From positions 1 through 12,370 of the forward strand of contig JALRBB010000478.1 in assembly GCA_023257915.1 (NCBI GenBank): a DNA stretch of 12,370 nt. Direction: 5' to 3'. The notes beneath the pieces were generated by a model. It worked only from the letters and a program-made list of their open reading frames with translations. It was not told the origin of the DNA and did not search any database. This stretch comes from Quisquiliibacterium sp. Lineage in GTDB: Bacteria > Pseudomonadota > Gammaproteobacteria > Burkholderiales > Burkholderiaceae_E. The position numbers and the translations under genes are program-made. Positions 1 to 12,370 of this stretch are shown here, one piece after another. The first letter of the stretch is position 1; the number at the start of each line of letters is the position of its first letter.

Positions 1-2006
1 AGGAGCGACTTGCCGCCAGCGAACGTCTGTTCCGGACCATGGTCGAGAACAATGGCGACCTGATCCAGGTGGTCGATTCGCAAGGTCATCTGGTGTACGC
101 GTCTCCCACCCATTACCGGTATTTTCAAACCGTGCCAGAAACAACGCTGGGCAAACCGGTTGGCGGCCATGTGCATCCGGAAGATCGTGAAAGAGTGTCC
201 GATCTGCTACGCCGCGGCTTATCGGGCGAGGCGATGGAATCCAAACATCGTCTCGTCTTGGCAGATGGTTCGATCCGCTGGGTCCATTTGCGGGGATATC
301 CGCTGTTCGATGCCAACGGCAAACCAGACGGTGGTTTAGCCGTCAATACCGACATCACCGACATCGTGGAGCAGTCAGACGAGGCGATCAGCCGGGCCCG
401 CTTCGGGCAGCAGACGCGGGTTGCGGCATTGCTGGATCTTTCTCAGGCACTGGTATACGAAGCCGATCCAGACGGAGTGCTTGTCTATGTCAATACGCAG
501 TTTTGCGAGTTTCTGGGGCGTTCGCGGGAGGCGCTGCTCGGCAGGCCGCTGGTGGAGTTCATCGACGCTTCGCAGCGGGAGTTGGTGCGTCGGCGCATCC
601 GGGAGCAGGCAAGCGGTGTATTGCCATTGTTTTCGATCACTGAGCGTCAATATGTGACGGCCGATGATCGCCGCGTCTGGTTGCGCGGTTCAGGAGTGGT
701 GCTGCATGACGAACAGGGCAAGGTCAGCGGGACTCTGGTGATCGGCCATGACACCACCGAGCGCTTGGCGCAGGAGTTGCAGTTGCGCCATGCGCTGGAC
801 TCTGCGCGCGAGGCCGAACAAGCCAAGAGCGATTTTCTGGCGGTTGCCAGTCATGAGCTGCGCACCCCGCTCAATGCGATGGTGGGCACTTTATATCAGC
901 TTGGCCAAGGCCCGTTGGCGCAGGCGCAGGCCGAACGACTGCAGCGCTTGCAACGCTCGGCGGCGCGCTTGAAGGCGTTGCTGGACGACATCCTGGACCT
1001 TAGCCGGCTGGAGTCTAGTCAGGTGCCATTGCTCAGCGAGCGCTTCTCGCTGGCGACGCTGGCACAGGAAGTTCGCTCGATGTTCTCCGATCAGGCGAGC
1101 GCCAAGGGGCTCGAGTTGGACGTCTGGGTGCAGCAATCGCAAGAAGTCTTGCTGGGCGACGAGTTGCGTCTAGGCCAGGCGTTGATCAATCTGGTGGGCA
1201 ATGCGATCAAGTTCACCGAGCGCGGTGCGGTCCGGGTGCGCCTGTCGGGCGAGCCGCTGGATGACGCGCATATTGAACTGCGTATCGAGGTGCAGGACAG
1301 CGGACCTGGACTGTCCGCCGAGCAAAGGGCCGGGCTGTTCCGACCGTTCGCACAAGCCGACCGGCGCCAGTCGGCCAGGCTTGGGGGCACCGGTCTGGGG
1401 CTGGCGATCGTGCGGCGCATTGCGCAGGCAATGGACGGCGAGGTCGGCGTAGAGTCCGAGCCGGGTGCAGGCAGCACCTTCTGGATGACTGCGCGGCTGG
1501 CGCGTGACAGTGCGGCGACAGACGCATCGACGGTCATGCCGGATGCGGCGCATGGTGACGGTGCGGCGCAGGGCGGATCGTCAGAGCCTGAACTCACCGG
1601 CCAGCAGGCCAAAGAGCGGCTCGCAAGCCAGTTTTCCGGCAGTTCGGTGCTGCTGGTCGAGGATGAGGCGATCACTCAGTTGGTCATGACCGAGTTGCTC
1701 GAGATGGCAGGGCTGACGGTCACGGTGGTTGACGACGGCGTGCCTGCGCTGCAGCGGATGCGCAGCGGCTTGGCGCCGGCGCTGATCCTGATGGACATGC
1801 AGATGCTGGAGATGGATGGGGTGCAGACGACGCGCGAGATCCGCGCGCTGCCGGGCGGCGAGCATTGGCCGATCATCGGAATGTCGGCCAATGCCTATGA
1901 GTCTGACCGACGGGCATGTCTGGAGGCCGGCATGAACCACTTCATGGCCAAACCGATCGATCCGGACGCGCTGTACCGGTTGCTGCTTCGGGTCTTACAA
2001 GGCTAG
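1..2006 (+). CDS. Hybrid sensor histidine kinase PAS-PAS-HisKA-HATPase-REC (5' end outside window)
   Basis: The reading frame is open from the first bases. Codons from position 3 read ERLAASERLFRTMVENN, a typical PAS opening, and the ATG at 39 has no ribosome site and lies inside that fold, so the gene begins upstream. Two PAS domains follow (about 20-370 and 420-780), each closing with a PAC-type segment (DGSIRWVHLRG; DDRRVWLRGSG). HisKA carries the autophosphorylated His in SHELRTPLN (codon 852-854). The ATPase domain shows the N box NLVGNAIKF, G1 DSGPGLS, F box and G2 GGTGLGLA. An Ala/Gly/Ser-rich linker leads to a receiver with LLVEDE, phosphoacceptor Asp in LMDMQM (1794-1796), Ser in GMSANA and Lys in AKPID. 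The protein stops right after this receiver, with no Hpt or output domain. No membrane segment is visible. The signal is unknown. The receiver has Leu where the conserved Pro after the Asp loop is expected (MQMLEMDG). It is related to the kinase at 8246-11701. Confidence 0.95.
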   Translation, partial: ERLAASERLFRTMVENNGDLIQVVDSQGHLVYASPTHYRYFQTVPETTLGKPVGGHVHPEDRERVSDLLRRGLSGEAMESKHRLVLADGSIRWVHLRGYPLFDANGKPDGGLAVNTDITDIVEQSDEAISRARFGQQTRVAALLDLSQALVYEADPDGVLVYVNTQFCEFLGRSREALLGRPLVEFIDASQRELVRRRIREQASGVLPLFSITERQYVTADDRRVWLRGSGVVLHDEQGKVSGTLVIGHDTTERLAQELQLRHALDSAREAEQAKSDFLAVASHELRTPLNAMVGTLYQLGQGPLAQAQAERLQRLQRSAARLKALLDDILDLSRLESSQVPLLSERFSLATLAQEVRSMFSDQASAKGLELDVWVQQSQEVLLGDELRLGQALINLVGNAIKFTERGAVRVRLSGEPLDDAHIELRIEVQDSGPGLSAEQRAGLFRPFAQADRRQSARLGGTGLGLAIVRRIAQAMDGEVGVESEPGAGSTFWMTARLARDSAATDASTVMPDAAHGDGAAQGGSSEPELTGQQAKERLASQFSGSSVLLVEDEAITQLVMTELLEMAGLTVTVVDDGVPALQRMRSGLAPALILMDMQMLEMDGVQTTREIRALPGGEHWPIIGMSANAYESDRRACLEAGMNHFMAKPIDPDALYRLLLRVLQG

Positions 2007-2035: not shown

Positions 2036-5000
2036 TCAACGGAAATCCCGACTCGCGGTGCGCAACTGTCCGAGCAGTGCGCTGTGGTCCTCAACGCGCG
2101 CTGCAATCAAGTGAGCGACCTCGCCGCCAGTGGCCTCATCGCGCTGCCAGGTGCCGTACACCGTCATCAGCCGTGCCGACAGTACTGCGCCACGAAAGCG
2201 CTCCATCAGTGACGGCCAGATAATCACGTTGACCGCGCCGGTCTCGTCTTCAAGCGTGACGAACACCGTCCCGTTTGCGGTGCCTGGTCGCTGCCGGTGC
2301 GTCACCAGCCCGCTGGCGCGCGCCAGTCGGCCGTTCGGAAAGTCGCGCAACACCGTGGCCGGCTGCACCCGGTAGCGGGTCAGCTGCGGGCGCAGTAACG
2401 CGAGCGGATGCCGGCCCATCGGGATGCCCAGCGACGCATAGTCGGCGATGATCTGCGCGCCCTCGTCGGGTTCAGGCAGGCGAACCGGAGCTTCCTCGAA
2501 GCGGGTATCAGCCAGCAGCGCCGGCAGCGGACGGATGGCTGCGGCTTCCCAGTGGGCGGCGGCGCGATGGCCGGCCAGTTGCATCAGCGCATCGGCGCGC
2601 GCCAGCGCGAGCAGGTCGCGACGCTCGAGCCGCGCACAACGGGCGAGATCTTCGGTGCTGTCGAAGGCGAACACCTGCGGCGGCATGGGCAGCGGGCGTG
2701 GCAAGGGCAGGTGAGCCGGCAGGCCGAGACGCTCTTTCAGGCGTTGCTCGCGTGCTGCCAGCAGTCGCTGCGCGCCGTCGCGCGACAGGCCGTGCACCCG
2801 GTTCAGCCCCAGTCGCACCGCCGGCTGCGCGCGCGGATCGCGGGCGTCGGCTGGCAAGGCGTGTGGCAGCGGTCGCGGATCGGTTTCCTGCAAGCTGCTG
2901 TCCCACTGGCTGGCCAGCACATCGACCCCGAGCACCTGCACACCATGCTCGCGCGCATCGCGCACCAGTTGTGCCGGCGCGTAAAAACCGAGCGGCTGCG
3001 CATCGAGCAGCGCGGCCAGAAAGGCGGCGGGCTCATGGCACTTGATCCAGCAGCTGACGTAGACCAGCAGTGCGAAGCTGGCGGCATGGCTTTCGGGAAA
3101 TCCGTATTCGCCGAAGCCCTGGATCTGGCGGAAGATGGATTCAGCGAAGTCACGCTGGTAGCCGCGTGCCAGCATGCCGTCGATGACACGGGTCTGGAAT
3201 TGCTCCAGTCCGCCCTTGCGCCGCCAGGCAGCCATCGCACGGCGTAGCTGGTCAGCCTCGCCGGCCGAGAACCCGGCCGCGAGCATCGCGATCTGCATCA
3301 CCTGTTCCTGGAAGATCGGCACACCCAGGGTACGGGCGAGCGCCGGACGGATCTCGTCGCGCGGATAGACCACCGGCTCCAGACCCTGACGCCGGCGCAG
3401 GTACGGATGCACCATGCCGCCTTGAATCGGGCCGGGGCGCACGATGGCGACCTCGATGACCAGGTCGTAGAAGCAGCGCGGCTTCAGGCGCGGCAGCATG
3501 CTCATCTGCGCGCGCGACTCGATCTGGAACACGCCCACGGTGTCGGCGCGCGAGATCATCGCGTAGGTGGCCGGGTCTTCGGCCGGGATGTCTTGCAGGC
3601 GAAACGGCCGTGCAATGCCGTCGGCACCCAGGCCGTCCGGGTGACCGGTGCGCCGCTCGGTGATGAAGCTCAGCGCCCGCCGGATGGCGCTGAGCATACC
3701 CAGTGCGAGCACGTCCACCTTGAGCAGACCGAGCGCGTCCAGGTCGTTTTTGTCCCACTGGATCACGCTGCGCTCGGGCATTGCGGCGTTTTCGACCGGC
3801 ACCAGCCGGGTCAGTGCGTCGCGCGCGATCACGAAGCCACCGGTGTGCTGCGACAGATGGCGCGGAAAACCGAGCAGCAAGTTGGTCATGCTGACCCAGT
3901 GACCGAACAGCAGCGAGTTCGGATCGAAGCCCTGGTCGGCCAGCCGTTGCGCGCAGACCTGCCGGCCGTCCCACCACTGGTGGTTGCGGCAGACCTGGTC
4001 GATGCGCTGCGCGTCGATACCCAGCGCCCGGCCGACGTCGCGCAGCGCCGAGCGCGGCCGGTAGGTGATCACGGTGGCGGCCAGTGCGGCGCGGTGCCGA
4101 CCGTATTTTGTGTACAAGTACTGGATGACCTCTTCGCGTCGCTGGTGCTCGAAGTCGACGTCGATATCCGGCGGCTCGTTGCGCTCGCGGCTGATGAAGC
4201 GCTCGAACAGCACCGACATGCGCGCCGGATCGACTTCGGTGATGCCCAGGCAGTAACAGACTGCCGAGTTGGCCGCCGAGCCGCGGCCCTGGCACAAGAT
4301 GCCGCGCCCGCGCGCAAACGCGACGATATCGGCGACTGTCAGGAAGTAGGCTTCATAGCCAAGCTCGGCGATCAGTGCGAGTTCATGCTCGATCTGGTGG
4401 CGCACCGAATCGGGCAGACCCTGCGGATAGCGTCCGGGTACGCCGGCATAGGTGAGCTCGCGCAGCCAGCTGGCGGGCGTATGGCCTTCGGGCACGATCT
4501 CGCGCGGATATTCGTAGCGCAGCGAGTCCAGGGAAAAGTCGCAGCGTGCGGCTACCTCCAGGGTTTCTTCGAGCAGCGCGGCCGGATACAGCCGGGCCAG
4601 TCGTAGCCGGCTGCGCAGATGCTGCTCGGCATTGCGGGCGACCGCCTCGCCCAGCTGCTGCACCGCGCGGCCCAGGCGGATTGCGCTCAGGGTGTCATGC
4701 AGACTCTTGCGCGAGCGCCGATGAAACAGCACATCACCGGCAGCCACCAGCGGCAGGCCGCTGGCCTGGCTGACGTCGCGCAAGCGCTCGAGCAGCACCG
4801 CGTCGCCGCCATTGGCGTGCAGTTCGACCGCGATCCAGCAACGTCCCGGGAAACGTTCGCGCCAGGCGCGGGCGAGGGCGGTGAATGCGGTTTGCGGATG
4901 CGCTGGTGCTTGCGCTTGCACCCCACAGCCCTGACCGGTGAATGCGGGATCCTGGCAGTGTTGATCGGACTGGCCCGCTTCGTTGATATCCGGTCCGGCC

Positions 5001-5413
5001 GCCAGCGAGGCAGGTGGTACCAGCAGTGCGAGGCAACCGTCGATGCCCCCGGCGAAGTCGGCCGGCTCCAGCCGGTAGCTGCCCTTGGGGGCGCGCATCC
5101 GGGCCCGGGTAATCAGCTCGCTCAGATTGCCGTAGCCTGCACGGTCCTGGGCCAGCAGCACCAGTCGGGTTTGCTGCAGTGGCGGCGGACACAGATCCTG
5201 CAACGAGAATTGCGCGCCGATCAGCAGCGCCAATCCGGCCTCGCGGGCTGCCAGGTGCGCGCGCACCACACCGGCGAGCGAGCATTCGTCGGTGATGGCC
5301 AGCGCCGCATAGCCGAGTGCCTGCGCGCGCTCGACCAGCTCTTCGGCATGCGAGGCACCGCGCAGGAAGGTGAAATTGCTGGCGCAGTGCAATTCGGCGT
5401 AGGCAGGAATCAT
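2036..5413 (-). CDS. dnaE2: Error-prone DNA polymerase DnaE2
   Basis: A 1125-residue C-family polymerase of the DnaE2 type, used for translesion synthesis and SOS mutagenesis. The N-terminal PHP domain starts YAELHCASNFTFLRGAS and continues AITDECSLAGVVRAH, a signature of DnaE2 rather than replicative DnaE. The polymerase core has GRGSAANS and the metal-binding PDIDVDF (Asp416, Asp418) with the third Asp in KVDVLALG (Asp567). HhH-type and OB-fold regions follow (OB about residues 1028-1062, GTVFVTLEDETGAVNVIIWP). All three catalytic acids are present. Start: the ATG at 5413 puts the conserved YAELHC at residue 4, as in known DnaE2 proteins. An upstream ATG at 5467 would add 18 unconserved residues but has a GAGG six bases ahead of it. 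A LexA box overlaps the chosen start. About 37 residues (138-175) rich in Gln, Ala and Gly look like an insertion in the PHP region. Neither imuA nor imuB lies directly upstream. Confidence 0.96.
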   Translation of the reverse strand: MIPAYAELHCASNFTFLRGASHAEELVERAQALGYAALAITDECSLAGVVRAHLAAREAGLALLIGAQFSLQDLCPPPLQQTRLVLLAQDRAGYGNLSELITRARMRAPKGSYRLEPADFAGGIDGCLALLVPPASLAAGPDINEAGQSDQHCQDPAFTGQGCGVQAQAPAHPQTAFTALARAWRERFPGRCWIAVELHANGGDAVLLERLRDVSQASGLPLVAAGDVLFHRRSRKSLHDTLSAIRLGRAVQQLGEAVARNAEQHLRSRLRLARLYPAALLEETLEVAARCDFSLDSLRYEYPREIVPEGHTPASWLRELTYAGVPGRYPQGLPDSVRHQIEHELALIAELGYEAYFLTVADIVAFARGRGILCQGRGSAANSAVCYCLGITEVDPARMSVLFERFISRERNEPPDIDVDFEHQRREEVIQYLYTKYGRHRAALAATVITYRPRSALRDVGRALGIDAQRIDQVCRNHQWWDGRQVCAQRLADQGFDPNSLLFGHWVSMTNLLLGFPRHLSQHTGGFVIARDALTRLVPVENAAMPERSVIQWDKNDLDALGLLKVDVLALGMLSAIRRALSFITERRTGHPDGLGADGIARPFRLQDIPAEDPATYAMISRADTVGVFQIESRAQMSMLPRLKPRCFYDLVIEVAIVRPGPIQGGMVHPYLRRRQGLEPVVYPRDEIRPALARTLGVPIFQEQVMQIAMLAAGFSAGEADQLRRAMAAWRRKGGLEQFQTRVIDGMLARGYQRDFAESIFRQIQGFGEYGFPESHAASFALLVYVSCWIKCHEPAAFLAALLDAQPLGFYAPAQLVRDAREHGVQVLGVDVLASQWDSSLQETDPRPLPHALPADARDPRAQPAVRLGLNRVHGLSRDGAQRLLAAREQRLKERLGLPAHLPLPRPLPMPPQVFAFDSTEDLARCARLERRDLLALARADALMQLAGHRAAAHWEAAAIRPLPALLADTRFEEAPVRLPEPDEGAQIIADYASLGIPMGRHPLALLRPQLTRYRVQPATVLRDFPNGRLARASGLVTHRQRPGTANGTVFVTLEDETGAVNVIIWPSLMERFRGAVLSARLMTVYGTWQRDEATGGEVAHLIAARVEDHSALLGQLRTASRDFR

Positions 5414-5432
5414 ACTGGATAAAAATACAGTA
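5413..5432 (-). promoter_or_regulatory. LexA (SOS) operator of dnaE2
   Basis: On the minus strand the 20 bases read TACTGTATTTTTATCCAGTA, very close to the E. coli LexA consensus TACTGTATATATATACAGTA, with the invariant CTG-N10-CAG core at 5415-5430. The last base of the box is the A of the dnaE2 ATG. Repression by LexA and release after DNA damage are expected from the family of operators; the site itself is directly visible. It lies 155 bases before the divergent monooxygenase start, so control of that gene is less likely. Confidence 0.92.
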
Positions 5433-5451
5433 TTTGTAGGGTGGCTCGCAA
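5423..5451 (-). promoter_or_regulatory. Candidate dnaE2 promoter overlapping the LexA box
   Basis: On the minus strand, TTGCGA (5446-5451) is a fair -35. It is followed after 17 bases by GTATTT, or after 18 by TATTTT, as a weak -10 inside the LexA box; TACAAA (5433-5438) is another possible -10. Any of these would start transcription only 0 to about 15 bases before the ATG at 5413, in a stretch with no Shine-Dalgarno sequence. This is inferred by eye from weak matches. Confidence 0.35.
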
Positions 5452-5573
5452 ACCTGGGGCGTTCCATTACGTGCCTCGCCTCACGGGCGATGACTCGCGT
5501 TCTGCTCTAAGCTGCGACGTGGCGTCCGGGTCTGCCCGCGCGGACACGGACGGCCACGCAAATGCAATACGGC

Positions 5574-7105: not shown

Positions 7106-7960
7106 TCAGACCTGCTCGAGCGCCAGAATCAGCCCGCAGGCCTTGGAGGGAGCCACCACCACGCGCTGCGCCTGCCGTTCGGCAGCCAGCGTGCCCAGGG
7201 TTTGTGCTGCCTGAGCGGCATCTGGCACTTGTAGCACCAGACTTGCCGCGCAGTCGTCCACCAGCAAGGACAGGTCCACGCCCGGATAGCGCGCCGCGAG
7301 CGTCGCCCGATCCAGGAACAGGAAATGCGCGCGCCTGCCTCCTGACTCCACTCGCCAGCCTCCTTGCGGATCTTGGATCGCCTGCTGATCGGTGAGCGCT
7401 GCCATCTGGTCGGCAGCCGCCCGCGGATCCCTGGCGAGAATCTCGATGCGCAAAATGCGCTGCACGCCGTTGCGATGTTGTTGTAGCTGCGGGATCCAGA
7501 CCGCCTCGCGGGTCAGATGCTGGCAGGCGAACAGGCGCAGGCCGCCGGGATGTGCATCGTCCGGCCAGTTGAAGGTGCGAAAGCTCGCTTGCGTGCTGCC
7601 GCCGCCTGGCAAGTCGACCGGGCGTCCGAAATCCATTGGCCCGGTGGCTGCGATACCGCGCGCGCGCAACGCGTCGGCACCGGCCTGCGCGTCCAGGGTG
7701 GTGAACGCGGCGCGTTCAATCCCTTCGCGACCGCGCAGGTAGTCGCGCATCGCGGCATTGGCCGGCGTGGGCTCAAGCACGCCGAGCAACTCCAGGTAGT
7801 CGTCACCGAACATGATGGTGTAGTTGCCGGTGCCCATGTTGGCACTGTGCGTGCCGCGCGGTGACAGCGTAAAGCCCAGTGCGCGCCAGGCTTGTGCAGC
7901 GTGCTCCAGGTCGCGCACCAGGATCACGACATGATCCAGGCCGATGATGGTTTGCAGCAT
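7106..7960 (-). CDS. VOC-fold glyoxalase-like domain protein
   Basis: A 284-residue protein opening with LDHVVILVRDLEHAAQAW, the typical first strand-helix of vicinal-oxygen-chelate proteins with a candidate metal-ligand His10. FGDDYLELLGV and then NWPDDAHPGGLRLFACQH follow, a pattern of the glyoxalase-like (Glyoxalase_3-type) subgroup. A weaker second half (about residues 160-284) looks like a second VOC module. Members of this fold include dioxygenases, isomerases and lyases, so the reaction is not known here. Start: the ATG at 7960 has AAGGGA at 7967-7972, six bases ahead; the frame extends upstream to 8065 but without conserved sequence. Its stop is 15 bases from that of the monooxygenase gene, tail to tail, and no terminator hairpin was seen in those bases. 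A functional link with that enzyme is possible but not shown. Confidence 0.85.
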   Translation of the reverse strand: MLQTIIGLDHVVILVRDLEHAAQAWRALGFTLSPRGTHSANMGTGNYTIMFGDDYLELLGVLEPTPANAAMRDYLRGREGIERAAFTTLDAQAGADALRARGIAATGPMDFGRPVDLPGGGSTQASFRTFNWPDDAHPGGLRLFACQHLTREAVWIPQLQQHRNGVQRILRIEILARDPRAAADQMAALTDQQAIQDPQGGWRVESGGRRAHFLFLDRATLAARYPGVDLSLLVDDCAASLVLQVPDAAQAAQTLGTLAAERQAQRVVVAPSKACGLILALEQV

Positions 7961-7966
7961 ACGTGG

Positions 7967-7972
7967 TCCCTT
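7967..7972 (-). promoter_or_regulatory. Ribosome binding site fixing the VOC protein start
   Basis: Minus-strand AAGGGA, six bases before the ATG at 7960. It favours this start over the upstream codon at 8065, and the VOC fold begins immediately after it. Confidence 0.7.
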
Positions 7973-8117
7973 AATGAGTTGAGTTCGACGCGACGAAAGT
8001 AAATCGCAACGAGTTGATGGCGAATGCGGCGCAATCGATCCCGCGGTGAGATCGAAATGTAGCAAGTTCAGGGGTTCTCGGTCCGCATCACTGGAAACGT
8101 AAAGTCTTTGTGAATTT

Positions 8118-8234: not shown

Positions 8235-8241
8235 GGAGGGG
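8235..8241 (+). promoter_or_regulatory. Strong ribosome binding site of the large hybrid kinase
   Basis: GGAGGGG lies four bases before the ATG at 8246 (six from the end of its GGAGG). A GTG at 8228 in the same frame lies upstream of this site and has no ribosome site of its own, so 8246 is chosen. Confidence 0.85.
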
Positions 8242-8245
8242 ATTT

Positions 8246-11200
8246 ATGTTGAATCAAGAAAACGCGAAAATTTTGATGGTCTCCGAAGCACGATCGACTT
8301 TGCCGATGCAAGACGACGAGCACTTTTCGGCGATTGGGTGGCCTGTGTTTGAGTGGTTGTTTGCTGAGCCGCTAGATCCGTTACTTGAACAAATTTCATC
8401 CGGCAGTGTTGCTGCGATTTTGCTGCATTTGCCGGTTTCGTCATCCGGTGATCTTGTTGGCAGCTTGAGATGTCGTCATGCGGACGTACCGATCGTAGTG
8501 TTGCTCGATACTTCGAGCGCCGGACTCGAACAAACTCTCTATCAGCAGGGCGTCGATGCAGTAGTTTGTGCAAACACGCAAGGCATTCAAATGCTTTTGT
8601 TGGCGCATTTAGAATCAGCCATAAAGCGGTCGCGTGCAAGATCTAGTTGGCAGTCAGATCCGACTGTTTTGGGGGCATCACGTGACATCGCCGATCCGCA
8701 GACGCTGCGACATCAGCTCGTCGCGTGTGCCGATCAACTCGGACTGCTATCCAGGATGCTAGATCAGGCCGATCGAGCAATTTGTTTGATCGAACCCGAC
8801 TCATGGACGATTGAGTATGTCAACGAAGGCACTTGTAAAGCGTTCGGGTACTCCATCGATGACTTTCGAGGCATGGCGATCAAGACGATAGCGCCGCTAT
8901 CGACACCGGACCGGAAGGGGTATTTACTTGCAACGTTACGTAGTGCCGAGAGAAATCGTTTTAGGTTTTTCGATACCCTTCGACGTTCGAATGGTAGTGA
9001 CTTTCGGGCCGAGATTGACATGCAAATCATCCGCGATCCACGCGTAGGCGAGCGAATCATCGCTGTGGTCTTGGATGTCACCGATCAAATAAATCGTGAG
9101 GAGGCCCTAAAGCAGGCGGTCCGGCGGGCTCGGAATGCTGAACGTGCAAAGGGAGAGTTTTTGGCTACGGTGAGCCATGAGTTGCGCACACCGCTTAATG
9201 CGATGCTCGGTACCTTGTACCAGTTGCAGAAATCTGAACTTTCCAATCACAGTGTCATCCGTGTCAAAAGGTTGGATCAGGCGGCACGGCATCTGAAGAA
9301 TCTGTTAGATGACATTCTTGATCTTTCTAAACTGGAGGATGGCAGCATGCAACTGCGCACCGAACCGTTTTCGGTGCCCGACTTCGTTACAGATCTGCGC
9401 GATATGTTTTCAGACCTCGCGCAGACCAAGGGTTTGAATTTTCTGATATCCGTTGAGCAAGTTGAGCCTGAGTTGATTGGGGATGAACTTCGCCTGAAAC
9501 AGGCTGTGATCAATCTGCTGGGTAACGCGATCAAATTCACTGATGACGGCGAAATTGAGCTGAAACTCCGGCAACGGGTGGTTGACCCTCATCATGTCGA
9601 GTTACAGTTATCGGTGCGTGACACCGGTCCAGGCTTATCGAAGGCTCAGCGGTCCCAGATCTTTGAACCCTTTGTGCAACTAGAGCTAGGCGCCAGGGGG
9701 CCGGAAAAGGGGACCGGGCTCGGTCTATCCATTGTGCAGCGCGTCGCGGAAGCGATGGACGGTGAGGCACATGTTTTGGCAACTTCGGACGAGGGGAGCA
9801 CATTCTCCTTCACCGGGCGCTTGGGGGTGGCGGCGCACACATCAACCAAGTTTAGTTTTTCGTATGACGCTCGTCGATTCTTCGCTCAGGTACAGTCATC
9901 AAAATCTCGGCCAGACCTTGGCTTGAAACCCGAAGTATCCGCCTTGGGTTCTGATGTTGCGACTGATCCGCGTAAACAGATTGAGGCGCAGTTTTCTGGC
10001 GCACGGGTACTGATCGTCGAAGACGATGAACTCACCAGCTTGATATTTCTGGACCTGCTCACGTCTGCTGGATTATTGGTCGATTTGGCAAGTGATGGCG
10101 CTGCTGCTCTCGCACGATTTGCGCAGGAACCCAAACCTAGCGTGATTTTGATGGACATGCGGATGCCGGGCATGGACGGTCCGCAAGCAACTGCAGCGAT
10201 TCGAAGGAAAACTACAGGCCTCACACTGCCAATCATTGGTATGTCGGCAAATGCCACTAGAAGCGATCAACAAGCTTTTGCTGTTGCAGGCGCAACGATG
10301 TTTCTTCCGAAGCCTATTGAACCGGACGCTCTATTTGCGGCGATGCTTTACGCCTTGCAGCTTTCGAACCAAGCTGTGCTCTCCGAGAAAAATCGGCTAC
10401 TAGCGTTAAAGAAAACTGGCTGGCTGGACACTGCCCCTGATCCGGGGCTCGACGAAATTGTCAGTCAGGCAGCCGCGGTTTGCCAGACCCCGATCGGGTT
10501 GGTTTCATTAGTTGACGAACATCGTCAGTGGTTCAAATCTCGAATTGGTCTTGATGCTCAGGAAACTCCGAGAGAGTTTGCATTTTGTGCTCATGCAATC
10601 TATCAAACAGAAGACCTGATGATTGTCAACGACGCTAGGGTGGACCCGCGCTTTTCTGATAACCCTCTTGTCCTTAATGATCCAAACATTCGATTCTATG
10701 CAGGTGCTCCGATTCGTACTCACGACGGAAATTCGATCGGTACTTTGTGCGTTATCGACCAGGTGCCTCGAGTTCTGAATCCTCAGCAGAAACATGAGTT
10801 TTTACAGCTAGCGCGGAAGGTTGAAGAAAGGCTGAATAGCGGAAGCTTGATCGAAGTTTCAAACTATCAATTGCGAAAACTTGGAACGGATGAGTTAGAA
10901 ATCAGCGAGCGTATTCGTGAGCGTTACGAAGGCAATGTAGTTTTGTTAGTTGAAGACGACCCGCTTACGGCAGAAATTTGCAGTGAATTGTTGATAGTGG
11001 CAGGCTTGGTCGTTCAACATGTCGCGAATGGGTCCGAGGCGTTACAGGCCATGGAAAAAGGGAATCCGCCTGCCGTAATCTTGATGGATATGAATATGCC
11101 GGTGATGGGGGGGGTTGAAGCGACGGCAGCAATTCTTGCCTTACCCGCGATGAGCAACGTGCCGATTATCGGGATGTCTGCGAATGCTTTTAATTCAGAT

Positions 11201-11701
11201 CGGCAGGCTTGTTTGCAGGCGGGCATGACCCGCTTTCTCGCCAAACCTATAGATCCGGACGAGCTATACCGGGATTTGTTTTTTGTCTTGGAGGGTACGA
11301 GCACAGATTTGCTCTCTGACGTGCAAAAGAATGCCTCGCTTCTATCAAGGCAAACGGATGTCAACTCGCCTTGCGATGTCAACGCTGCATCCAGGCGCTG
11401 GTCGGATCGGGCGCTTTACTTTCGTATGCTCAAGAAGTTCCGAGAAAACTATCGAGGTGCTGCGTCTGAGCTTAAGACTTTGCCTGCCGTCGAGGGAGTG
11501 ATGCTTTCCCATCGCATCAAAGGGACCGCTCTGATGCTTTGTTTGCAAAGCGTGGCGAGATGCTCGGCGATCACCGAGATTGCATTCGAGGCTAATGCAC
11601 CGGCCGCCGAGCATCTTGATGATCTGGAGGCTGCGCTTGAAGAAGCTTTCGACTGGATCGATAGTCTGGAGCGGGATGCAGATATCATCCTCACATTATG
11701 A
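8246..11701 (+). CDS. Large hybrid histidine kinase: pseudoREC-PAS-HisKA-HATPase-REC-GAF-REC-Hpt
   Basis: A 1151-residue soluble phosphorelay kinase with no visible membrane segment. Residues 5-125 have a receiver-like pattern, but the phosphoacceptor position is His61 (ILLHLP) and the conserved Lys is absent. PAS spans about 165-285. HisKA has SHELRTPLN with His311; the ATPase domain shows NLLGNAIKF, DTGPGLS and GTGLGLS. The first true receiver (about 590-705) has Asp637 in LMDMRMP. A GAF domain (about 716-865) includes FCAHAI, DPRFSDNPLV, IRFYAGAP and GTLCVID. The second receiver (about 895-1016) has Asp948 in LMDMNMP. The C-terminal Hpt has SHRIKG with His1089. A full His-Asp-His relay is therefore present in one chain, but no DNA-binding or enzymatic output. 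The signals sensed by PAS and GAF are unknown. Base composition is clearly lower in GC than its neighbours. A G8 run lies in the second receiver. The stop overlaps the next start by ATGA. Confidence 0.95.
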   Translation: MLNQENAKILMVSEARSTLPMQDDEHFSAIGWPVFEWLFAEPLDPLLEQISSGSVAAILLHLPVSSSGDLVGSLRCRHADVPIVVLLDTSSAGLEQTLYQQGVDAVVCANTQGIQMLLLAHLESAIKRSRARSSWQSDPTVLGASRDIADPQTLRHQLVACADQLGLLSRMLDQADRAICLIEPDSWTIEYVNEGTCKAFGYSIDDFRGMAIKTIAPLSTPDRKGYLLATLRSAERNRFRFFDTLRRSNGSDFRAEIDMQIIRDPRVGERIIAVVLDVTDQINREEALKQAVRRARNAERAKGEFLATVSHELRTPLNAMLGTLYQLQKSELSNHSVIRVKRLDQAARHLKNLLDDILDLSKLEDGSMQLRTEPFSVPDFVTDLRDMFSDLAQTKGLNFLISVEQVEPELIGDELRLKQAVINLLGNAIKFTDDGEIELKLRQRVVDPHHVELQLSVRDTGPGLSKAQRSQIFEPFVQLELGARGPEKGTGLGLSIVQRVAEAMDGEAHVLATSDEGSTFSFTGRLGVAAHTSTKFSFSYDARRFFAQVQSSKSRPDLGLKPEVSALGSDVATDPRKQIEAQFSGARVLIVEDDELTSLIFLDLLTSAGLLVDLASDGAAALARFAQEPKPSVILMDMRMPGMDGPQATAAIRRKTTGLTLPIIGMSANATRSDQQAFAVAGATMFLPKPIEPDALFAAMLYALQLSNQAVLSEKNRLLALKKTGWLDTAPDPGLDEIVSQAAAVCQTPIGLVSLVDEHRQWFKSRIGLDAQETPREFAFCAHAIYQTEDLMIVNDARVDPRFSDNPLVLNDPNIRFYAGAPIRTHDGNSIGTLCVIDQVPRVLNPQQKHEFLQLARKVEERLNSGSLIEVSNYQLRKLGTDELEISERIRERYEGNVVLLVEDDPLTAEICSELLIVAGLVVQHVANGSEALQAMEKGNPPAVILMDMNMPVMGGVEATAAILALPAMSNVPIIGMSANAFNSDRQACLQAGMTRFLAKPIDPDELYRDLFFVLEGTSTDLLSDVQKNASLLSRQTDVNSPCDVNAASRRWSDRALYFRMLKKFRENYRGAASELKTLPAVEGVMLSHRIKGTALMLCLQSVARCSAITEIAFEANAPAAEHLDDLEAALEEAFDWIDSLERDADIILTL
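11107..11114 (+). repeat. G8 homopolymer inside second receiver domain
   Basis: Eight consecutive G, encoding the Gly-Gly after MPVM, seven codons past the phosphoacceptor Asp948. Receivers usually have MDG here, so an Asp-to-Gly change created the run. Gain or loss of one G would shift the frame and remove the rest of the receiver and the Hpt. Confidence 0.9.
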
Positions 11702-12370
11702 GGATTCAAGCACCGGTCAAGTGGCCTGCCTCGCTGTGGGCGTCAGTCACTGCGCCGTCACCGGCGTGGCCGCAGCTCCAGGGGGAGATCGCAGCCGATG
11801 TCGTCGTGATCGGCGCCGGATTCTCCGGACTGTCGACCGCACTGCATCTGGCAAAGGCCGGCGTGTCGGTGGCGGTTCTCGAGGCCGCCGAGCCTGGCTG
11901 GGGGGCGTCCGGACGCAACAACGGTCAGGTGATCCCGACGCTCACACGGCCCGATCCGGAGCAGATCCTTGCGCGCCACGGTCAAGCCGGTGAGCGCTTC
12001 GTCCATCTGGTGCGCGACTGCGCTGATATCCTGTTTGCACTGGTACGCGCCGAGGGCATCGAAGCCGAGGCCGAGCAAAACGGCTGGATCCAGCCGGTGC
12101 ACTCACCCGGTCGGATCAAGATCGCCGAGCGTCGCGTTCGGCAGTGGGGCGCGGTCGGTGCGCCGGTCGAGATGCTGTCGGCACAGCAGGTGCGCGAGCG
12201 CACCGGTTCGGATGCCTGGTATGGCGGCTGGTGGAACCGTAGTGGCGGGCATGTGAATCCGCTGGCTCTCGCGCGCGGCTTGGCGCTGGCTGCGCAGCGG
12301 GCCGGCGCGCAGATCTTTGCGCGCTCGCCGGTCTGCGGGTTTGTGCGCGAACCGCAAGGCGGCAGCGCCC
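11698..12370 (+). CDS. FAD-dependent oxidoreductase, DAO/PuuB-like (3' end outside window)
   Basis: The frame is open to the right edge, giving 224 N-terminal residues. They include the FAD-binding GAGFSG (residues 39-44) preceded by ADVVVI, with Glu62 at the end of the second strand (VAVLEA) as expected for binding the ADP ribose. PGWGASGRNNGQVIP follows, a hallmark of the glycine/D-amino-acid oxidase group that includes gamma-glutamylputrescine oxidase PuuB and related OrdL proteins. Family members oxidise amines or amino acids with FAD; the substrate here is unknown because the C-terminal half is missing. Start: ATG at 11698 overlaps the kinase stop (ATGA). The SLW...ADVVVIG spacing fits family N-termini. 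No separate ribosome site is evident, so translation is probably coupled to the kinase. GC content returns to the high level of the rest of the window. Confidence 0.9.
   Translation, partial: MRIQAPVKWPASLWASVTAPSPAWPQLQGEIAADVVVIGAGFSGLSTALHLAKAGVSVAVLEAAEPGWGASGRNNGQVIPTLTRPDPEQILARHGQAGERFVHLVRDCADILFALVRAEGIEAEAEQNGWIQPVHSPGRIKIAERRVRQWGAVGAPVEMLSAQQVRERTGSDAWYGGWWNRSGGHVNPLALARGLALAAQRAGAQIFARSPVCGFVREPQGGSA

Follow-up and report, generated by a model that had tools for sequence, protein, structure and literature searches.

A GAF domain between two receivers in a hybrid histidine kinase of Quisquiliibacterium sp.

In TodS, the second PAS domain sits behind the kinase core. The excerpted account of this protein describes a sensor domain within a multi-step relay (PMC4321377). 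In ShkA of Caulobacter (PDB 6qrj), according to the portions of the two reports cited, a domain between the ATPase and the terminal receiver, a c-di-GMP-binding pseudo-receiver, can keep the kinase inactive as long as no small molecule is bound (PMC7010744, PMC12632262). Proteins with one transmitter and two receivers form an established class, with 588 members in the part of a census drawn on here (PMC3018481). GAF domains, as far as the cited passages go, are commonly N-terminal in kinases and serve as the ligand-binding domain of some response regulators (PMC2222644, PMC5847659). The GAF of Dcsbis (PA2771, PDB 4zmu) precedes a GGDEF domain; the excerpt describes a dimer formed via helices 2 and 5 and a large pocket with no known ligand (PMC4937426). 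A GAF between receivers is not described in the excerpts of the open-licence literature found on this architecture.

The hybrid kinase analysed here is encoded in a 12,370-nucleotide stretch of Quisquiliibacterium sp. DNA (contig JALRBB010000478.1), hereafter the window. Like ShkA, it has an extra domain between the ATPase and the terminal receiver; this is a GAF placed before the second receiver (REC2), whereas that of ShkA is a pseudo-receiver. TodS differs in having a PAS domain rather than a GAF, and a second transmitter where the window kinase has REC2 and Hpt. The HATPase-REC-REC-Hpt kinases (10 of 355 proteins among the matches listed) have the kinase core, two receivers and a C-terminal Hpt in common with it. 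They lack an inter-receiver GAF, and no in-family pair is typed among their receivers; the two receivers of the window kinase, by contrast, fall in one clade with the receiver of its paralogue.

Domain organisation and gene neighbourhood

The kinase gene, its domains and its neighbours are located as follows.

8246..11701, + strand: hybrid histidine kinase gene, 1151 aa plus stop, open reading frame with start ATG at 8246
8267..8647, + strand: N-terminal domain (residues 8-134), degenerate receiver-like by hhalign, phospho-Asp missing
8747..9088, + strand: PAS domain (residues 168-281), PAS_9 at 1.6e-6 over residues 178-280
9146..9343, + strand: HisKA (residues 301-366), phospho-accepting His311 at 9176-9178
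9479..9814, + strand: HATPase_c (residues 412-523), N and G boxes intact
10004..10360, + strand: first receiver, REC1 (residues 587-705), D637 at 10154-10156
10322..10417, + strand: one predicted continuous helix (residues 693-724), AlphaFold2, pLDDT 85-91
10385..10840, + strand: GAF domain of the Dcsbis (FCAHAI) type (residues 714-865)
10937..11293, + strand: second receiver, REC2 (residues 898-1016), D948 at 11087-11089
11378..11695, + strand: Hpt domain (residues 1045-1150), His1089 at 11510-11512
3..2006, + strand: paralogous hybrid kinase, PAS-PAS-HisKA-HATPase-REC, cut by the contig start
2036-5467, - strand: DNA polymerase III alpha-like protein with PHP domain, 1143 aa
5441-7087, - strand: flavin-binding monooxygenase-like protein, between the two kinases
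7106-8065, - strand: Glyoxalase_3 protein (PF13468, 1.8e-38), between the two kinases
11698-12369: DAO-family FAD oxidoreductase gene (PF01266, 3.1e-43), cut by the window end

A ribosome-binding-like GGAGGGG (8235-8241) lies upstream of the kinase ATG, and the near-identical database protein P0001 has the same start residue. Pfam identifies PAS_9, HisKA, HATPase_c, two receivers and, between the receivers, a GAF (residues 735-856). The domain order of the original prediction, HisKA-HATPase-REC-GAF-REC-Hpt, is borne out by Pfam and, for the Hpt, by hhalign; the motifs it noted, as well as D637, D948 and H1089, were found where it had placed them. The kinase core combines a HisKA bearing its His (H311 is invariant across 55 aligned sequences) with a HATPase bearing N and G boxes, as expected of a hybrid kinase. 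Both C-terminal receivers carry the acid pair, Asp, Thr/Ser and Lys: the active-site set of REC1 is complete (E592, D593, D637, S667, K689), and REC2 also keeps E903, D904, S978 and K1000. The C-terminal Hpt with its His is identified by hhalign against the Hpt regions of other hybrid kinases (97.2%, 3.5e-11), the Pfam score alone being below cut-off (E 0.9; E 0.0011 in P0002). The structure model is helical across residues 1045-1150, and the Hpt piece gave no match among PDB sequences up to E 1. The N-terminal domain resembles receiver profiles (hhalign 85.5%, E 5.7e-6) and scores 0.1-0.5% with PAS, GAF, HATPase, HisKA and Hpt profiles. Its alignment has a two-residue gap at the expected phospho-Asp, with His61 nearest by eye, and the structure model does not resolve its fold (pLDDT under 60). 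The kinase shows neither a stop nor a degenerate catalytic domain. Judged by its sequence, the protein is intact and belongs to the hybrid histidine kinases with two receivers and an Hpt, for which multi-step transfer is predicted.

The inter-receiver GAF is well formed, as had been claimed. It scores 52.5 bits with PF01590 against a Pfam cut-off of 22.4, and of 53 near-invariant positions it keeps 51, among them the FCAHAI, DPRF.DNPLV, RFYAG and GTLC motifs; the fold check named in the original prediction found that the segment does have a GAF fold. A reading of the domain as a degenerate remnant is rejected by the same 51 conserved positions. The closest solved GAF is that of Dcsbis. In the AlphaFold2 model, the last helix of REC1 continues as the first helix of the GAF (residues 693-724), while the GAF-REC2 join consists of a weak stretch (877-881, pLDDT below 50) and a short helix. 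The full-length single-chain model has a pLDDT of 77.7 and a pTM of 0.43, with domain placement not reliable beyond the REC1-GAF helix. Its first Foldseek match is ShkA, in a loose superposition (rmsd 23.1, TM 0.18/0.43). A ShkA-type pseudo-receiver without phospho-Asp was not found between the ATPase and the terminal receiver: REC1 has a complete active site, and a GAF precedes REC2. The position of the GAF fits a putative ShkA-type control by a small molecule from behind the kinase core.

The open reading frame at 3-2006 corresponds to the C-terminal part of a P0009-type protein, and its kinase core is 50% identical to that of the window kinase. Full-length P0009 has the N-terminal domain, kinase subfamily and receiver lineage in common with the window kinase; it differs in having four PAS domains, one receiver, no GAF and no Hpt. 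By sequence comparison the two kinases are related by descent, which does not imply joint action. Elsewhere in the assembly, contig C402 (1173-3029) matches P0009 residues 1-619 at 94% and contig C304 matches residues 504-1170 at 99%, a pattern that points to strain variants or to a break between contigs. The product of 2036-5467 is presumably a DnaE2-like error-prone polymerase. Downstream, the oxidoreductase start overlaps the kinase stop (ATGA at 11698-11701), so the two genes may be co-transcribed.

Rarity, conservation and origin of the arrangement

The complete protein and its C-terminal half served as queries against a 5.8-billion-protein set (best 120 each), and a third search was seeded with the HATPase-GAF-REC part of a 1020-residue protein on contig C206 of the same genome. 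Domain models for typing were built from the window and C206 proteins, so that other GAF subtypes may be missed. The two window-protein searches listed 235 different proteins. Among these matches, REC-GAF-REC-Hpt stands behind the kinase in two (P0001 and P0002), GAF-REC in three and REC-GAF in two; in the remaining 228 typed proteins the kinase is followed by no GAF of this type. The C206-seeded search listed 120 additional proteins, with GAF-REC behind the kinase in 24 and REC-GAF in 30. Across the 354 listed database proteins (P0001 excluded), 120 of which came from the C206-seeded search for HATPase-GAF-REC, this GAF type occurs only upstream of the kinase in 277, only behind it in 58 (P0002 included), on both sides in two and nowhere in 17. 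The premise that GAF domains normally sit upstream therefore holds for 277 of 354 listed proteins. The claim of an unusual order stands for the exact order, which is rare, but not for a GAF behind the kinase core as such, which is not new. In the proposed architecture search, the full order is likewise confined, among the matches listed, to the window protein, P0001 and P0002; GAF-REC and REC-GAF behind a kinase recur.

Long inter-receiver gaps were read directly in the 209 typed proteins with at least two receivers behind the kinase. Nine have a gap of more than 90 residues, filled by a GAF in three (the query, P0001 and P0002), by a typed Hpt in two and by an Hpt-like AHTLKG segment, assigned by eye, in four. 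P0001 differs from the window protein at four residues, so that among the matches listed the full order is limited to two sequence lineages, window protein/P0001 and P0002. P0002 keeps the order and all motifs at 83% identity. Its domain pieces are 83-90% identical to those of the window protein, highest in REC1 (89.9%), which indicates that neither GAF nor receiver is decaying; the N-terminus is least alike (73.8%). An assembly chimera was rejected, as P0002 shares the order and P0001 has four members on three contigs. The window protein is a genuine, rare arrangement of familiar domains.

Genome searches scored at most 9 or at most 23 candidates per genome family-wide and at most four class-wide, and the following absences are not strict. 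Within these bounds, only the own genome among 74 family genomes has a full-length match at E 1e-100, the 73 others having none. The REC1-GAF-REC2 piece finds matches in 14 of the 74 at E 1e-40, with all three domains covered in none but the own genome. In the class sample, four of 369 genomes match the piece at E 1e-48, again only the own over all three domains; of the others, G201 matches over the GAF alone, in G235 the GAF begins its own frame, and G433 has a C-terminal REC-GAF. The G433 locus (L030:3408-5261) joins a metallo-beta-lactamase-fold domain, a receiver and this GAF type in one 618-residue frame. A poorly aimed scan of genome contigs with two peptide patterns gave at least 80 loci; among the 132 HATPase-bearing frames in the 80 loci covered, none has this GAF type after the HATPase.

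Three GAFs of this type were found in the own genome (77.6% complete), all of them following a kinase core and immediately preceding a receiver: in the window gene and in the genes on contigs C6 (857 aa) and C206 (1020 aa). HisKA falls below the Pfam cut-off in the C6 and C206 proteins. The closest listed match to the C206 protein is from Quisquiliibacterium sp. (96% identical over the searched region); this one protein points to the same genus, placed in Burkholderiaceae at NCBI, as the probable genus of the genome. In G027, a same-genus genome, a HATPase-GAF-REC frame has behind it the type of gene that also follows on C6, judged by eye. HATPase-GAF-REC was found in two of 74 family genomes at E 1e-60 and in one of 369 class genomes at E 1e-70. 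These kinases (C6, C206, P0236-P0256 and others) share with the window kinase the GAF type and its position behind the kinase and directly before a receiver, but have one receiver, no Hpt and another kinase subtype (HDFNN-type H-box by eye). The HATPase-REC-GAF kinases (P0124, P0263 and others) have the same GAF type behind a receiver, but there it forms the C-terminus, without second receiver or Hpt. A stand-alone GAF-REC protein of 304 aa is encoded in family genome G009 (L026:6376-7290), between ileS-like and coaBC-like genes (named by eye). A 1723-residue frame at G000:C317 has four Hpt domains above the family cut-off.

The receiver tree comprised 90 of 270 non-redundant receivers (from 570), picked by similarity to the receivers of this kinase. 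A single eight-row clade (100/99) unites REC1 and REC2 with their P0002 counterparts and the P0009-type receivers, and both receivers therefore appear to have arisen by duplication of the receiver native to this kinase subfamily. Borrowing from a classical REC-REC pair is not favoured, given the same clade. The pairing of REC1 with REC2 has a support of 100/88; a tree holding REC2 with the P0009-type receivers has a log-likelihood 0.25 higher (p-AU 0.524), and one holding REC1 with them gives a p-AU of 0.286. In a first GAF tree, the window GAF fell in a 15-row set with the HATPase-GAF-REC GAFs (98/89), a set containing three very long branches and with bootstrap unsettled. Once five long-branched proteins were removed, the free tree no longer recovered this set, and the tests rejected neither of the groupings (p-AU 0.295 and 0.341). 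By BLAST, most of the GAFs that come next after that of P0002 are N-terminal, with about 57% identity.

A possible role for the inter-receiver GAF

Known phosphorelays run His-Asp-His-Asp. The direct transfer from Asp637 to Asp948 in the original prediction is not supported by this chemistry, since any phosphoryl exchange between D637 and D948 would have to pass by way of His311 or His1089. We envisage that the phosphoryl group would pass from ATP to His311, to a receiver Asp (D637 and/or D948) and then to His1089, for which the likeliest donor would be the adjoining REC2, and finally to a response regulator encoded outside the window. In this scheme the GAF would dimerise and would probably be under the control of a ligand. 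With a stiff link to REC1 and a loose one to REC2, it would shift which receiver reaches His311 or His1089 and thereby provide an input behind the kinase core. We favour such a GAF, one that biases the choice of receiver at the kinase or the Hpt, because of the dimer and pocket of the Dcsbis GAF and the precedent of ShkA, and regard it as plausible rather than probable. The signature and fold of the GAF, the high identity of the domain pieces to P0002, the continuous REC1-GAF helix, the catalytic residues kept and the recurrence of GAFs immediately preceding a receiver also speak for it. Against it stand the low pTM of the single-chain model, the looseness of the ShkA match, the fact that the middle domain of ShkA is a pseudo-receiver, and the occurrence of the full order in only two sequence lineages among the matches listed. 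The GAF may gate the receiver-to-His1089 step, as originally proposed. More doubtful is the joint proposal that the GAF would be a ligand-operated phosphorelay valve choosing REC1 or REC2 for His311 and His1089, and that a broader class of hybrid kinases, with the window protein as its most elaborate member, would receive a second signal via a receiver-linked GAF (GAF-REC or REC-GAF) behind the kinase. No description of such a class was found in the excerpts of open-licence literature.

The main rival to a gating GAF is a relay that runs His311-Asp948-His1089 via REC2 alone, with REC1 and the GAF as a side module. Once phosphorylated, REC1 would then act via the fused helix on the GAF, which would be its output as in REC-GAF proteins, in the manner of feedback or a phosphate sink. 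We consider this side-module reading unlikely: the modelled continuation of the last REC1 helix into the GAF, the adjacency of REC2 and Hpt, the recurrence of a C-terminal REC-GAF in 32 of 355 proteins among the matches listed and the archaeal REC-GAF response regulators on record in the cited excerpt (PMC5847659) all speak for it, but REC1, with its complete active site and as the domain most conserved against P0002, also fits a relay role. Little credence is given to a GAF that binds no signal and offers only a dimer contact and a spacer for side-by-side receivers. Dcsbis, in the passages cited, does dimerise via its GAF without a known ligand (PMC4937426), yet the 51 of 53 near-invariant positions kept are more than a spacer would seem to need. 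Recent shuffling might also have placed the GAF between duplicated receivers, where it is tolerated without function. Such an accident would agree with the confinement of the full order to the window protein (with P0001) and P0002 among the matches listed, and with 73 other family genomes, few candidates being scored in each, that have no full-length match; it is made very improbable by the order and all motifs being kept at 83% identity and by the absence of any stop or degenerate catalytic domain.

Returning to the gating GAF, a conserved GAF between in-family receivers would give a signal direct access to phosphoryl routing, and the same question can be put to the recurring HATPase-GAF-REC proteins, which are simpler. 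If gating is true, the GAF would join the short list of regulatory domains known to lie behind the kinase core, namely the pseudo-receiver of ShkA and the second PAS domain of TodS.
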